From the NCBI RefSeq assembly GCF_000179555.1, contig NZ_AECZ01000007.1:1-64000 (forward strand): a stretch of DNA of 64,000 bases. The letters run 5' to 3'. The translations under genes were made by a program, and so were the position numbers. The notes beneath the pieces were generated by a model that searched no databases, was not told where the DNA came from, and saw only the letters and a program-made list of their open reading frames with translations. Positions 54,173 to 61,661 of this stretch are shown in pieces. Position 1 is the first letter of the stretch; every line of letters begins with the position of its first letter. This DNA comes from Solidesulfovibrio fructosivorans JJ] (GTDB taxonomy: Bacteria; Desulfobacterota; Desulfovibrionia; Desulfovibrionales; Desulfovibrionaceae).

Positions 54173-54258
54173 GCCGAAGTGGTGGAACTGGTAGACACGC
54201 CATCTTGAGGGGGTGGTGGGCCATGCCCGTGGGGGTTCGAGTCCCCCCTTCGGCACCA
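54173..54258 (+). tRNA. tRNA-Leu (anticodon GAG)
   Basis: 86 bases with an encoded CCA. Acceptor stem GCCGAAG/CTTCGGC, discriminator A, D arm with GGTGGAACTGGTAGACACG, anticodon stem CCATC/GGTGG round loop TTGAGGG (anticodon GAG), a long variable arm (GGGC/GCCC) as expected of a class II tRNA, and T arm GGGGG-TTCGAGT-CCCCC. The integrase gene 210 bases downstream indicates that the 3' end serves as the attachment site of an integrated element. Confidence 0.95.
54225..54258 (+). other. Probable attachment site (attL) in the 3' end of tRNA-Leu
   Basis: Tyrosine integrases of this P4-like type usually recombine in the T-arm to acceptor end of tRNA genes, restoring the gene. The integrase gene begins shortly after the tRNA, so the left junction should be here. 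The matching copy (attR) must lie beyond the window and is not seen. Confidence 0.55.
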
Positions 54259-54310
54259 TATTAGAGTCCAGGACGGTCCGATAAAGACCGCAACAACCTG
54301 GGAACATTAA

Positions 54311-54468: not shown

Positions 54469-55707
54469 ATGGCCTTGACCGATGTCGCCGTAAGGAACGC
54501 CAAGCCAGGTCCTAAAACTATCCGCCTCAAGGATGAGCGCGGGCTTCATCTGGAAATCAGCCCCAAAGGCGGAAAGTGGTGGCGGCTTCGCTACTGGATA
54601 TCCGGTAAGGAGCGGCTCATTTCCCTGGGCATCTATCCGGATATCTCCCTCAAGGACGCCCGCGAACGTCGCGACGAAGCCCGAAAGCTCATCGCCAACG
54701 GCATAGATCCGGGCAGGGCGCGGCAGGACGAGAAGTCTGCTGCCGAGGCCCGGGCAGCAGAAGATGCGAATACTTTCGAGGTCGTGGCCCGAGATTGGCA
54801 TGCCAAGCAGGTCAAGGCCTGGAGTGAGGGGCATGCCGCCAAGGTCCTGGCCCGGATGGAACAGCACCTTTTTCCCGCCTTTGGTCATTTCCCTATCACG
54901 ACTCTTCGCGCCCCGGCGATCCTCCCCACACTTCGAGAGATCGAAGCGAAGGGGCATAATGAGACGGCCAAGCGCCTGCGCCAGTACTGCGAGGCCGTTT
55001 TTGCCTTCGCCATCTCCACGGGCATTGCCGAAAGAAACGTCGGGGCGGACCTCCGCGGTGCATTGGCCCCGGGGCGTGTCACGAACCGGCCGGCCATCAT
55101 TGATCCCAAAGGCGTGGCACAACTGCTGCGGGCCATAGATGGCTACCAGGGAAGTCCTGTGACCCTGGCAGCTCTACGACTGGCTCCTCTCGTCTTCGTC
55201 CGTCCTGGAGAACTGCGCCAAGCCGAGTGGTCGGAAATCGACCTGGACGCCGCCGACGGTCCCCGCTGGTCAATCCCTGCCGAGAAGATGAAAATGCGCC
55301 GAAATCATGTTGTACCGCTCTCAAGGCAGGCTGTGGAGATCATCGAGGACCTTCGTTCTCTGACCGGCCATGACCGCTTCCTTTTCCCCTGCAACCGGAC
55401 CAAGGACCGCTGCATGTCGAACATGACCCTCAATGCGGCTTTGCGACGCCTCGGGTATGAACAAGGCGAGATGTGCGCACATGGATTTCGGGCCATGGCG
55501 TCCACGCTCTTGAACGAACAGGGCTGGAACAGTGACCTAATCGAGCGCCAGCTTGCCCATGCCGAGCGTAATTCCATCCGGGCCGCGTACAACCGCGCCG
55601 AATATTTGCCTGAGCGGCGAAAAATGATGCAAGCCTATGCCGACCACCTGGACAAGCTCAAGGCCGGGGCGAAGGTGACGCCGATCCATGCCACGGCAGG
55701 CGACTAG
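54469..55707 (+). CDS. P4-type tyrosine integrase
   Basis: 412 residues. An N-terminal DUF4102 arm-binding domain (MALTDVAVRNAKPGPKTIRL, GLHLEISPKGGKWWRLRYW) is followed by a SAM-like core-binding domain and the catalytic domain with R (VFVRPGELRQAEW), H-x-x-R (HGFRAMAST), H (QLAHAERNS) and the tyrosine nucleophile in AAYNRAEY. GGAGG lies eight bases upstream. It catalyses site-specific insertion in the neighbouring tRNA-Leu. Confidence 0.94.
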   Translation: MALTDVAVRNAKPGPKTIRLKDERGLHLEISPKGGKWWRLRYWISGKERLISLGIYPDISLKDARERRDEARKLIANGIDPGRARQDEKSAAEARAAEDANTFEVVARDWHAKQVKAWSEGHAAKVLARMEQHLFPAFGHFPITTLRAPAILPTLREIEAKGHNETAKRLRQYCEAVFAFAISTGIAERNVGADLRGALAPGRVTNRPAIIDPKGVAQLLRAIDGYQGSPVTLAALRLAPLVFVRPGELRQAEWSEIDLDAADGPRWSIPAEKMKMRRNHVVPLSRQAVEIIEDLRSLTGHDRFLFPCNRTKDRCMSNMTLNAALRRLGYEQGEMCAHGFRAMASTLLNEQGWNSDLIERQLAHAERNSIRAAYNRAEYLPERRKMMQAYADHLDKLKAGAKVTPIHATAGD

Positions 55708-57457: not shown

Positions 57458-57627
57458 CCGCCCTTAAGTTGGCCCTGGGCTTGTGGGTGCGTGACGGCAT
57501 CATTTCCCTGGTCGCCGTTACCGGGTGGCCCCGCTGGGGGTGGGCGCATCGGGCCGTGGACCGGTGTGAGGTTGCGGCCGAGGCCCTGCGTGGTCAGGAG
57601 GAACGGGAGGGCCATGAACGTGCCTGA
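57454..57627 (+). CDS. Small phage protein, 57 residues
   Basis: Starts at ATG 57454 in an ATGA overlap with the preceding stop, preceded by GGGGGTGGC, and ends at TGA 57627 inside the RepA-like gene. The chain MTALKLALGLWVRDG continues with a Trp-rich middle (TGWPRWGWAHRAVDR) and a charged end. No family recognised; the coupling on both sides supports it as real. Confidence 0.5.
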   Translation: MTALKLALGLWVRDGIISLVAVTGWPRWGWAHRAVDRCEVAAEALRGQEEREGHERA

Positions 57628-59167
57628 CCCTCAATCCGGGATTGCCCTCGACCGGGAAAGTATCCTTACTGCGGTCCACGCCCGGGTTTCCCAGGAAGAG
57701 GCCATTCATGGGGCCGGCGGGCACGGCAAGGGTGAGACGTCCGTCTTCGCCCGGCTGAACCTCGCCGACTTTGAGGCCCGCCAGTTGCTGGCCGACGATC
57801 TTCCGCCCTTAGCCTGGACCTTCACCGATTTCATGCTGACACAGAACGTCGGCCTCCTGGTTGGCCCTCCAGGGACAGGGAAGAGCTTTTTTGCCCTCCT
57901 TCTGGCTTCTGCCGTGGCCTGCGGTAGGGGCTGCGAAGGGATCCTTGAAGCCGGCGTTCGGGGCCGTGTGCTGGTCCTGGCTGGTGAGGAAGACGCCCGG
58001 ATCATTCCCCGCCGCCTGCGTCGTCTGCGTGATCACCTCCTTCCTGATGGATATGGACGGGACTCCAACGCCGATTCCGATGAAGCAGATTTCCTTGAAA
58101 ATCTGATCGTGGTTCCTCTGGCTGGGCAAAGACTGCGGCTGCTCGACAAAGATGGCCCTGGCGCGCCGGCAACAACGAACGTCTTTGACGATCTGGTTTC
58201 ACTCTGCCGGGGGAAGAATCTTCAGCTTGTTGTCATCGACCCGCAGAGTCGGTTCTATGGGCTCGACGAAAACGACAATAGTGCCAGCACCGTCTATATT
58301 GAAATTCTCGAAAGGCTGGCCGCTGAAACTGGCGCGTCCATCCTCTGTCTGCACCATGTCAACAAGACTGCCATGGTCAAGAAGGATGGTTTCCGCGTTG
58401 CTCTGGGACAAGGGGCGGCGCGTGGAGCCTCAGGATTCACCGGGGCTGTCCGGGCACAAATGAACCTCGTGACCCTGACCGCAGAAGAAGCCCGGCGGGA
58501 ACTAGATCTGACTGGTCCAATTGAAGAGGGGGAATATCTAGCCCTGGCCTTCCCGAAGTGCAGTTATGGCCCGCCCCGGCCTGTTGTTTTCCTGAAGCGT
58601 CTTCCCGGCGGCGTGCTGGTCGCCGTCGAAGCGCCCGAGCGGGTGGAACAAAAAGAAGCTGAAGCCGCAATCCTCGAATGGATCGTCACCAAGGTTCGGG
58701 AGCACGCCGAGCAAGGCAAGGAAGCCCTGACCATTCGAGACCTTGGGCGGTTTTCCTCGGAATGGAAGGACATCCCCGGTACCAGCCGGCAACGAGTTGA
58801 AGACGCGGCCCGGGTGGCGGTCCTTGATGGGAGCCTCTTTACCGTCACGCGGGCAAACAAATCTGGCCGAAAGACCGAATACCTGTCCCTCTCCCCAGAT
58901 GTGCCAGAAGCGCCCAGAGAAGCGCCCAGCTTTGAAGCGCCAGAAGCGCCCAGAAGCGCCCAAAATGCTCGGGCGGTTCTAATCCCTAACGATTCAGGCA
59001 TATTGAGAAGCGCCCAGGAAAAGAAGCGCCCAGACGAATTCCAACCCTCGAAAACCCGCATAAACAGGGATGTGCCAGAAGCGCCAGAAGCGCCCCTTCT
59101 AAAGAAGGAGAGAGCAGGCGCTTTGGGCGCTGCTTCTCCTCTTCTTTCGGGAGGGCTGCCGCAATGA
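57614..59167 (+). CDS. RepA-like hexameric replicative ATPase
   Basis: 517 residues. The RecA-type core (about 65-300) has Walker A VGPPGTGKSF near residue 82, Walker B LVVIDPQSRFYG near 205, and LCLHHVNKTA, the pattern of RSF1010 RepA/DnaB-type helicases carried by phages and plasmids. A winged-helix region follows (AILEWIVTKV, TSRQRVEDAA). The C-terminal 90 residues are low-complexity (EAP, RSAQ) because they overlie a DNA repeat array. The start is coupled to the 57-residue gene and the stop to the primase gene (ATGA). Confidence 0.85.
   Translation: MNVPDPQSGIALDRESILTAVHARVSQEEAIHGAGGHGKGETSVFARLNLADFEARQLLADDLPPLAWTFTDFMLTQNVGLLVGPPGTGKSFFALLLASAVACGRGCEGILEAGVRGRVLVLAGEEDARIIPRRLRRLRDHLLPDGYGRDSNADSDEADFLENLIVVPLAGQRLRLLDKDGPGAPATTNVFDDLVSLCRGKNLQLVVIDPQSRFYGLDENDNSASTVYIEILERLAAETGASILCLHHVNKTAMVKKDGFRVALGQGAARGASGFTGAVRAQMNLVTLTAEEARRELDLTGPIEEGEYLALAFPKCSYGPPRPVVFLKRLPGGVLVAVEAPERVEQKEAEAAILEWIVTKVREHAEQGKEALTIRDLGRFSSEWKDIPGTSRQRVEDAARVAVLDGSLFTVTRANKSGRKTEYLSLSPDVPEAPREAPSFEAPEAPRSAQNARAVLIPNDSGILRSAQEKKRPDEFQPSKTRINRDVPEAPEAPLLKKERAGALGAASPLLSGGLPQ
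58907..59094 (+). repeat. Iteron-like array of nine GAAGCGCC repeats
   Basis: Direct copies start at 58907, 58919, 58934, 58943, 58953, 59007, 59023, 59078 and 59087, most extended to AGAAGCGCCCAG. An AT-richer gap (AATCCCTAACGATTCAGGCA and TATTGA) lies between copies five and six, and GGCGCTTT, an inverted near-copy, lies at 59117. The copies fall in all three codon phases of the host gene (read as EAP, RSAQ and KKRP), so the repeat is conserved as DNA and not as peptide. Confidence 0.75.
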
Positions 59168-60420
59168 CAATCCTCGAACATCCTGTTCTTGCCGGGGCCA
59201 TGAAATACGTCTCCGCGACAAGCGGCGGCGAGTACGCCGGCCCCTGTCCTTGGTGCTCCGGCACTGATCGTTTCCGGCTTTGGCCAGCCGAAGGCGCAAC
59301 CGGCCGCTGGATGTGTCGCGGCTGTGGCCGCCAGGGCGACGGCATCCAATTCCTTCGGGACATGGAGGGCCTGAGCTACCCAGACGCCTGCAAGCGCCTG
59401 GGGACAACGCCCAAAGCGGCTGGAACCACGCACACCCTCAAGCCTGCCCCTTGGGAGCCCAAGCCCGCCGTACTGCCTGGGGAAGCCTGGATTGCCCGCG
59501 CTGGCCAGTTCATTGACCGCTGCGCCGCCGCTTTGGCCGCTGGTGGTCCAGGCATGGAGTACGCCCGGGGTCGGGGCCTGACCGCCCGGACGTGCGCCGC
59601 CCTGCGGATCGGCTGGAATCCTTCGGACCTCTACGAGGACCGTGCCGCCTGGGGCCTGCCCGAAGAGATCAACCCCAGAACGGGGAAGCCCAGACGTGTC
59701 TGGCTTCCGTCTGGTCTGGTCATCCCGACCCTGCGTGAAGGGCAAGTGGTGGCCATCAAAATCCGTCGCTCCAAATGGACGCCCGAGGACCAGCTTCCGA
59801 AGTACGCGGCCGCCAGTGGCGGCGGGAAGTTGCCCATGGTCCTGGCCCCGGGCGAGGGCAAACCCTGTGTTGTCGTAGAGTCCGAGCTTGATGCCATCCT
59901 GGCCGCTCAGGAGGCCCGTGACGCCGTTTCCTGTGTCGCCCTCGGCACGGCAAAGGGAAAACCCGATGCTGCGGCCAACGCGCTTTTTATGGCCGCCCCC
60001 GTGGTCCTGGTAGCTCTGGACTTCGACGAGGCCGGGGCGACGGCATGGCCCTGGTGGCGTTCAACCTACCCGAAGGCGAAAAGGTGGCCGGTCCCAGCAG
60101 GGAAAGACGTGGGCGACCTAGCCGCCCAGCCGGGCATGATCCGGGCATGGATCGAAGCCGGGCTGCCCGATCCCGAGCGGAACGTGGAGCCAGAGCCGGT
60201 CCCTGAATCATCCCATGTTGTCGGGCCTATCCTGCGCCGTGCTGCCGATCTGGCCCATGGTGCGCCCTGCACCACATCCGAAGCCGAGCTTGCCAAACTT
60301 CGGGAGACGTTCCCGCATCTGTATGTGTGCCCGGCTACAACGCCGCCATGGAACTTTCGCTACGTCTCGGACTGCGCGACCCGGTGCGCGACACCGTGCG
60401 AACTGCAAGCAACAAACTAA
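59164..60420 (+). CDS. Phage primase (CHC2 zinc finger plus TOPRIM)
   Basis: 418 residues. A CHC2-type zinc finger, CPWCSGTDRFRLWP and MCRGCGRQGD (residues 27-55), is followed by a TOPRIM fold with the glutamate in CVVVESELDAIL near 240 and the aspartate pair in LVALDFDEAG near 282. It makes primers for element replication and partners the RepA-like ATPase encoded just upstream. The C-terminal 70 residues contain several cysteines (CPATT, CATRCATPC) and may bind another zinc. Confidence 0.88.
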   Translation: MTILEHPVLAGAMKYVSATSGGEYAGPCPWCSGTDRFRLWPAEGATGRWMCRGCGRQGDGIQFLRDMEGLSYPDACKRLGTTPKAAGTTHTLKPAPWEPKPAVLPGEAWIARAGQFIDRCAAALAAGGPGMEYARGRGLTARTCAALRIGWNPSDLYEDRAAWGLPEEINPRTGKPRRVWLPSGLVIPTLREGQVVAIKIRRSKWTPEDQLPKYAAASGGGKLPMVLAPGEGKPCVVVESELDAILAAQEARDAVSCVALGTAKGKPDAAANALFMAAPVVLVALDFDEAGATAWPWWRSTYPKAKRWPVPAGKDVGDLAAQPGMIRAWIEAGLPDPERNVEPEPVPESSHVVGPILRRAADLAHGAPCTTSEAELAKLRETFPHLYVCPATTPPWNFRYVSDCATRCATPCELQATN

Positions 60421-61046: not shown

Positions 61047-61198
61047 ACGTGAATACTTCCAAGAACGCCAAGGCGAAGTCCGACGCCGAACTTGAGGCCG
61101 AGGCTATCCGGGAGCTCGAGCGCATGGAGCGCGCCTTGAACGCCAAAAAGAGCGGCTACCGGCCGAAGCGCAGGAGGGCATATGCGGATCATCGCTGA
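61043..61198 (+). CDS. Small basic phage protein, 51 residues
   Basis: Starts at ATG 61043 in an ATGA overlap with the previous stop and ends at 61198 within the nuclease gene. The chain is a charged helix (DAELEAEAIRELERMERALN) with a basic tail (RPKRRRAYADHR). Unknown function; the tight packing on both sides supports it. Confidence 0.5.
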   Translation: MNVNTSKNAKAKSDAELEAEAIRELERMERALNAKKSGYRPKRRRAYADHR

Positions 61199-61661
61199 CA
61201 CCAGGGAGCAACGCGTTTTCTCCTTCGCCAAGTATGAGGCCGAGGTGGAACGCGCCGCCCTGCCGACCGCTGATTACTCGCTGCCGGGCTTCGAGGACCG
61301 TGTGGGCATTGAGCGCAAGGAGCTTGGCGACCTCATTTCCTGCCTCATGGGGGCAAACCGGGAACGGTTCGTGAAAGAGCTTCGCCGCCTGTCCTCATAC
61401 GAGCTCAAGGCCGTGGTGGTCGAGGCATCCATGCGTGACGTGGCGGACGGCCAGTATCGATCGGAAATGCGGCCACACGCCGTGCTTCAGTCGGTCTTCG
61501 CCTTCCAGGTGCGCTACGCTGTCCCGTTCCTCTTCTGCGGGGACCGGGCCGGCGCGGAATATACAACCTTCTGGCTCCTGGCGAAGTACGCCCGCGAGAT
61601 CGAGGAGCGCATGAAGGCCCTGACCAAATCCCAAGCCCCGGCAAAGGGCGAAGCGGCATGA
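61182..61661 (+). CDS. ERCC4-type (XPF-like) nuclease
   Basis: 159 residues. The ERCC4 nuclease core is visible: MRIIADTREQ at the N-terminus and the catalytic GIERKELGDLISCL (ERK-x3-D) near residue 47, with LKAVVVEAS following. Lone ERCC4 domains occur in phages and plasmids and cut branched or flap DNA during replication or recombination. No helix-hairpin-helix partner domain is present. AGGAGGGC precedes the ATG. Confidence 0.85.
   Translation: MRIIADTREQRVFSFAKYEAEVERAALPTADYSLPGFEDRVGIERKELGDLISCLMGANRERFVKELRRLSSYELKAVVVEASMRDVADGQYRSEMRPHAVLQSVFAFQVRYAVPFLFCGDRAGAEYTTFWLLAKYAREIEERMKALTKSQAPAKGEAA

Follow-up and report, generated by a model that had tools for sequence, protein, structure and literature searches.

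A clustered array of short direct repeats inside the 3' end of a RepA-like helicase gene in Solidesulfovibrio fructosivorans is very likely the iteron replication origin of the integrated island that carries it, bound by a winged-helix domain of the helicase itself. The window analysed is a stretch of 64,000 nucleotides at the start of contig NZ_AECZ01000007.1. Within it, the array, the conservation of its position and spacing in relatives, and its exchange together with the winged-helix domain are direct observations.

Nine copies of GAAGCGCC lie within 188 bp (58907-59094), all on the forward strand, and an exact match search returns the same count as a preliminary description of this DNA. 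Five direct copies (58907, 58919, 58934, 58943 and 58953) form iteron group 1 (58907-58960). A 46 bp spacer (58961-59006) separates them from group 2 (59007-59030), the copies of which start at 59007 and 59023, a spacing of 16 bp that recurs in relatives as two direct copies 15 or 16 bp apart. In group 3 (59078-59094), the first copy starts at 59078 and the second 9 bp later, at 59087. The copies had been said to be mostly of one longer form; the 12-mer AGAAGCGCCCAG is exact in five of the nine, a bare majority. Three inverted copies with one mismatch, at 58972, 59117 and 59126, had been missed. The first (58972-58979) is inside the spacer, while the other two form a pair on the reverse strand (59117-59124 and 59126-59133), approximately 30 and 39 bp beyond the final direct copy, a placement also seen in relatives. 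The spacer is the candidate melting region and the AT-richer gap described there is real, although mild, at 54% AT against 41% at the locus. No strong AT-rich tract was found in the array locus, and the GC-skew switch suggested as a check was not clearly seen around the array. In the whole 4.67-Mb genome there are nine pairs of GAAGCGCC 1-30 bp apart, six of them in the array. A further GAAGCGCC at 58628, upstream of the array, is most simply due to chance, approximately seven being expected per window.

The helicase gene (57614-59167, forward strand) encodes a 517 aa RepA-like, hexameric-type protein with a Pfam AAA_25 match (E=2.7e-37). The ATG at 57614 was chosen as its start, the reading frame being open from a GTG at 57491. 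Its stop codon overlaps the ATG of the next gene (ATGA), a zinc-ribbon, DnaG/TOPRIM-like primase (59164-60420, forward strand; Pfam Zn_Ribbon_Prim and Zn_ribbon_DnaG, PHROG DNA primase), and the gene order originally proposed is confirmed. Several short direct repeats clustered in one place, inside the 3' end of a helicase gene and ahead of a primase gene, have both the form of an iteron-type origin and its usual adjacency to an initiator.

These genes belong to a 19.2 kb island integrated at a tRNA-Leu gene (anticodon GAG; 54173-54258, forward strand, identified by ARAGORN), its right end being beyond the window. The attL core (54253-54284) is a 32-bp identical direct repeat, the second copy of which is 19,220 bp away at contig positions 73473-73504; both sit within a longer imperfect repeat. 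A tyrosine integrase (54469-55707, forward strand; Pfam Phage_integrase, Arm-DNA-bind_3 and Phage_int_M) is accompanied by the helicase, the primase, an ERCC4-type nuclease and a DUF5681 protein. The ORFs scanned in the right part include one for an excisionase-like protein. None of the island ORFs scanned matched a capsid, tail or terminase family, which indicates an island- or satellite-like nature. The nuclease gene (61182-61661), shortly past the primase, is possibly part of a replication or recombination module. At 62992-64839 there is a 615-aa protein (weak Laminin_G_3 match) that, like its neighbours, belongs to no known family.

The helicase core is confidently modelled by AlphaFold (pLDDT 85-95) and matches RSF1010 RepA in Foldseek (1olo/1nlf, TM 0.86 by target length). 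It is followed by the proposed iteron-binding domain, a predicted winged-helix domain at residues 341-425 (58634-58888, forward strand), with a helix-helix-helix-strand-strand order and a pLDDT of 84-92 in the full model, or a mean of 85.6 when modelled alone. The isolated domain has weak Foldseek matches only (E > 0.004), which include many winged-helix proteins (DnaD N-domain, BLM RQC, KAT6A WH, RTP and PadR) as well as unrelated methyltransferases. The first iteron begins four codons past this domain, and the array codes only for the residues directly after it, approximately 431-517 (58904-59164, forward strand), a tail predicted to be disordered (pLDDT about 31-39).

The repeats could in principle be a low-complexity, slippage-prone peptide repeat in this disordered tail, having no function as DNA. 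Relative to the ATG at 57614, six copies are in phase 0 and read EAP, two are in phase 1 (SAQ) and one is in phase 2 (KKRP). The occupation of all three phases had been put forward as evidence against selection on the protein; it stands, but the distribution is skewed and the argument by itself is therefore weaker than was claimed. More decisive is synonymous recoding of the 89-residue tail using the codon usage of the gene itself, which in 20,000 trials gave a mean of 0.86 copies of GAAGCGCC and a maximum of 6, never nine, as expected from the original contention that peptide selection cannot explain the repeats. The spacing of the copies is uneven but conserved, and arrays of the same layout occur in non-coding DNA in relatives. 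A peptide repeat is thus already contradicted on three counts and is a most improbable explanation. Four distant relatives (L005, L030, L104 and L110) have helicases that end within a few residues of the same winged-helix domain, and in several relatives with helicases ending there the repeats are downstream of the gene. The tail of the window's helicase is therefore best read as a translated origin, extra sequence gained by reading through the array. Loss of the DNA repeat with retention of the peptide had been named as the outcome that would count against an origin. The comparison gives the opposite: the peptide is not kept, whereas the cluster of direct repeats and its spacing are, though the repeat sequence differs for each replicon.

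Relatives of the helicase were compared as a set of 97, distinct at 60%. Strong clusters, defined as at least 5 exact 8-mers within 300 bp, were found at most 400 bp from the helicase stop codon in 20 of the 97; other parts of the same loci had such clusters in 2, although these parts made up five times more DNA (382 kb versus 77 kb). In a first set of 63 helicases there were 16 clusters near the stop and 0 elsewhere, and dinucleotide shuffles gave none. The repeats of the relatives are 8-9 bp and at the same place, with sequences that differ between replicons: CCGGACAG in L002 and L003, ACTCTGTCA in L004/L100, CAGCGCCA in L005/L144, AGGTGCCA in L037, TTTCCGCCA in L026 and L097, TTTGTGCC in L042, L087 and L098, and AACTGAAG in L103, from an Erysipelotrichia MAG. 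Exact conservation of the window's own GAAGCGCC was not found in the relatives. Because the repeat is particular to each replicon, relatives could not have been found by searching with it; single-protein pattern scans of genome and viral contigs likewise returned no relatives, and alignments were needed to find them. The spacers of L002, L100, L026, L037 and L087 are 52-68% AT. Many of the relatives have the helicase and no detectable array at this place. The feature is not universal, since the lytic phages BUCT618, Vibrio phage 1.123.O and vB_Yen_X1 have a related helicase and no array at its 3' end.

Many of the unlike repeats share an ending such as G(A/C)CA, seen as GGACA, CGCCA, TGCCA and AGACA. 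This shared half hints at one conserved contact that may be made by the winged-helix domain.

Although the repeat sequences differ, the geometry of the copies is retained. With D for a direct copy, i for an inverted copy and positions counted from the helicase stop codon, the window reads D-258 D-246 D-231 D-222 D-212 i-193 D-158 D-142 D-87 D-78 i-48 i-39. The layout in L037 is D-45 D-37 D-27 i-11 D29 D44 i60 D91 D99 D108 i138. With a shift of 185 bp, 8 sites agree within 2 bp between these two, against a permuted maximum of 6, even though the L037 repeat is AGGTGCCA and the helicases are 27% identical. Nine sites match between the window and L100 (ACTCTGTC, helicase 37% identical; null maximum 8), and 7 match in L144 (CAGCGCCA, helicase 27% identical), above all permutations. 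L002, L026, L087, L141 and L149 also match the window beyond their permutations. The null was 500 interval-and-strand permutations, giving a per-pair p floor of 0.002, which is reached by 23 of the 820 possible pairs, permutation having been confined to pairs in which 60% or more of the sites matched.

In close relatives, the repeat changes with the C-terminal domain of the helicase rather than with its core. In close pairs with cores at least 80% identical (n=40), the similarity of the motifs has a Spearman correlation of 0.74 with the C-terminus and 0.03 with the core; as these 40 pairs are not independent, the p-value of the correlation is not taken at face value. Motif similarity is 0.70-1.00 in the 14 of these pairs with a C-terminal identity of at least 56%, and 0.30-0.69 in the 26 below this. 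Across all pairs of relatives there is no correlation with C-terminal identity (0.09), and a relation confined to close relatives is what would be expected if specificity turns over fast. The helicases of L026 and L037 agree at 85-100% until the C-terminal domain, where identity drops to approximately 50-60%, and the two loci have unlike repeats. A repeat is shared by L026 and L097, which resemble each other less in the core but more in that domain.

Two pairs show how such differences can arise. L146 and L173, from the same genome, have helicase cores that are 98.7% identical and C-termini that are 52% identical. Their DNA is 97-100% identical to about -260, approximately 62% identical to about +220, and mostly 90-100% identical beyond. 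L037 and L042 have the same mosaic pattern, with the divergent stretch running to about +160. In both pairs the direct and inverted layout is kept in the two members and the repeats are different. According to the breakpoints, the exchanged stretch comprises the array and the recognition half of the winged-helix domain, so that, as judged from the alignments, domain and repeats appear in these two pairs as a single cassette exchanged between near-identical flanks. The adjacency of the winged helix and the repeats weakens the covariation argument, without removing it, as linkage alone would give some co-exchange. The exact right-hand breakpoints, though from few pairs, argue against linkage alone.

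L146 and L173 are also of interest as residents of one genome. In genome G511, contig C1, they mark two elements at approximately 280.7 kb and 2113.2 kb (L146/L193 and L173/L194) that are largely 96-99% identical and differ chiefly in the winged-helix and iteron cassette and in one neighbouring stretch. The arrangement looks like an escape from incompatibility.

These exchanges bear on the alternatives to an origin bound by its own helicase. A separate small initiator could bind the repeats, leaving the RepA-like protein as a helicase only. The core is of the RepA hexameric helicase type and its closest solved structure is that of RSF1010 (IncQ) RepA, in the replicon of which a separate protein, RepC, binds oriV (PMC2200642); several ORFs of the island have no known family, while no recognised initiator family was found among the island proteins scanned. 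However, RSF1010 RepA lacks the additional winged-helix domain of the island helicase, its structures stopping short of that point, it is with this domain and not with the core that the repeats change, and the exchanged stretches of L146/L173 and L037/L042 end just past the array. Relatives with a C-terminal extension of <50 aa, which lack the domain, had an array in 0 of 5 cases, an association that is only suggestive (p = 0.056). A separate initiator is accordingly unlikely, and the natural cassette exchanges support the RepA-like product as the putative binder of the array, as was first suggested.

The array could also be a bound control or segregation site (for incompatibility or copy-number handcuffing, a parS-like centromere, or an operator) rather than a start of replication. 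Iteron arrays in plasmids do act in incompatibility and autoregulation, and this one is within a transcribed gene. Yet a conserved arrangement of copies in both orientations, sited between the helicase and primase genes and exchanged along with the DNA-binding domain of the helicase, is what an origin requires, and among the island genes none was recognised as a partition gene. Such a site in place of an origin is improbable, although the repeats of an origin can have other uses as well, such as copy-number control. Lastly, the repeats might be recombination, packaging or antitermination sites (chi-like, pac or nut-like) that are near the helicase gene by chance, given the mobility of the island and its possible packaging. 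Sites of this kind, being read by host or helper proteins, should be common to the replicons of one host, whereas the near-identical co-resident elements have unlike repeats that track the C-terminal domain of their own helicase. There is very little to recommend this explanation over an origin.

Other arrays were noted near related helicases. The AAA_25 helicases of L016, L018, L019 and L161 carry at the C-terminus an HTH of another, resolvase-like kind, and directly downstream are GTGGGACA or TGACGCAA arrays that have a conserved spacing of their own, making a second class with another DNA-binding domain. L138 (MW202557.1; 748-1045 and 4485-4799) has 17 copies of GGACAGAT within 300 bp in the region of a pentapeptide-repeat gene, and several TGTGAGTACTCACA palindromes downstream of repA.

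Parts of this arrangement are known from other systems. In SaPI, PICI and SCCmec, the origin is directly 3' of the gene for a helicase-initiator, the C-terminus of which is the iteron-binding part (PMC6092414, PMC7581432). PICI and SaPI, from Gram-positive and Gram-negative hosts, are, like the element described here, integrated islands with an integrase, a primase and a helicase-type initiator, their short iterons being in sets around a spacer (PMC6092414, PMC7581432). They are phage-inducible and have no structural genes of their own. They have two iteron sets flanking one AT-rich region, whereas this island has three direct groups plus inverted copies and a mildly AT-rich spacer, and its array is inside coding sequence, overlapping the 3' end of the gene. 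Its helicase core, with the RSF1010-RepA/DnaB-type fold, would be a further difference from SaPI Rep. SCCmec Cch2 is a helicase with a C-terminal DNA-binding domain, with iterons just downstream of the operon and an adjacent primase (PMC7581432), but it belongs to the MCM-like AAA+ helicases, has 3'-to-5' polarity and acts on 5-nt iterons, in contrast to the RepA-type core and 8-12 nt iterons of the island. Iterons and an AT tract within the gene of the initiator itself, as a translated origin, are found in the lambdoid O/ori system, and in Stx phages extra iterons in ori simply lengthen the O protein (PMC7466680). The island array is likewise within initiator coding sequence. O, however, brings in host DnaB by way of P instead of being a helicase itself, and it is unrelated to the island protein in both DNA-binding domain and sequence family. 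A literature search, mainly of openly available papers, returned no account of this class of origin.

From these features it can be proposed that the island excises and that its RepA-like helicase acts as its own initiator, binding the iterons via the C-terminal winged-helix domain encoded just upstream of them. The helicase subunits would take up a set arrangement dictated by the direct and inverted copies, opening would occur in the spacer between iteron groups 1 and 2, the helicase ring would be loaded there, and the primase encoded by the next gene would prime synthesis. Binding, melting, loading and origin firing at the array are thus what we infer from its structure. Here and in L002, L003 and L004, the frame of the helicase gene extends across the proposed origin as far as the start of the primase gene, with the result that the origin is also translated, in this island into the disordered tail.

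DnaB/RepA-fold replicative helicases are usually brought to an origin by a separate initiator, in many cases with a loader as well. In this island, a RepA-type helicase and origin recognition seem to be combined in one protein, and the oddly repetitive tail of that protein would be explained as a translated origin. It is fairly probable that this represents a widespread class of mobile-element replicon, the replicative helicase of which, of the RepA/DnaB type (RecA fold), itself recognises the origin, and that specificity resides in an exchangeable cassette of approximately 450 bp, made up of the winged-helix domain and the iterons, with the direct and inverted geometry fixed, enabling near-identical elements to change origin type and coexist in one cell. 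The iterons would then have a readable spatial code, conserved across distant hosts, and a specificity cassette that is naturally shuffled. As the domain and repeats are exchanged together, origin recognition is directly testable. If this is true, the origins of many unannotated prophages and islands would be predictable from the 3' end of the helicase gene, recognition could be decoded from pairs of winged-helix domains and repeats, and the incompatibility of co-resident elements could be tested with natural domain swaps.
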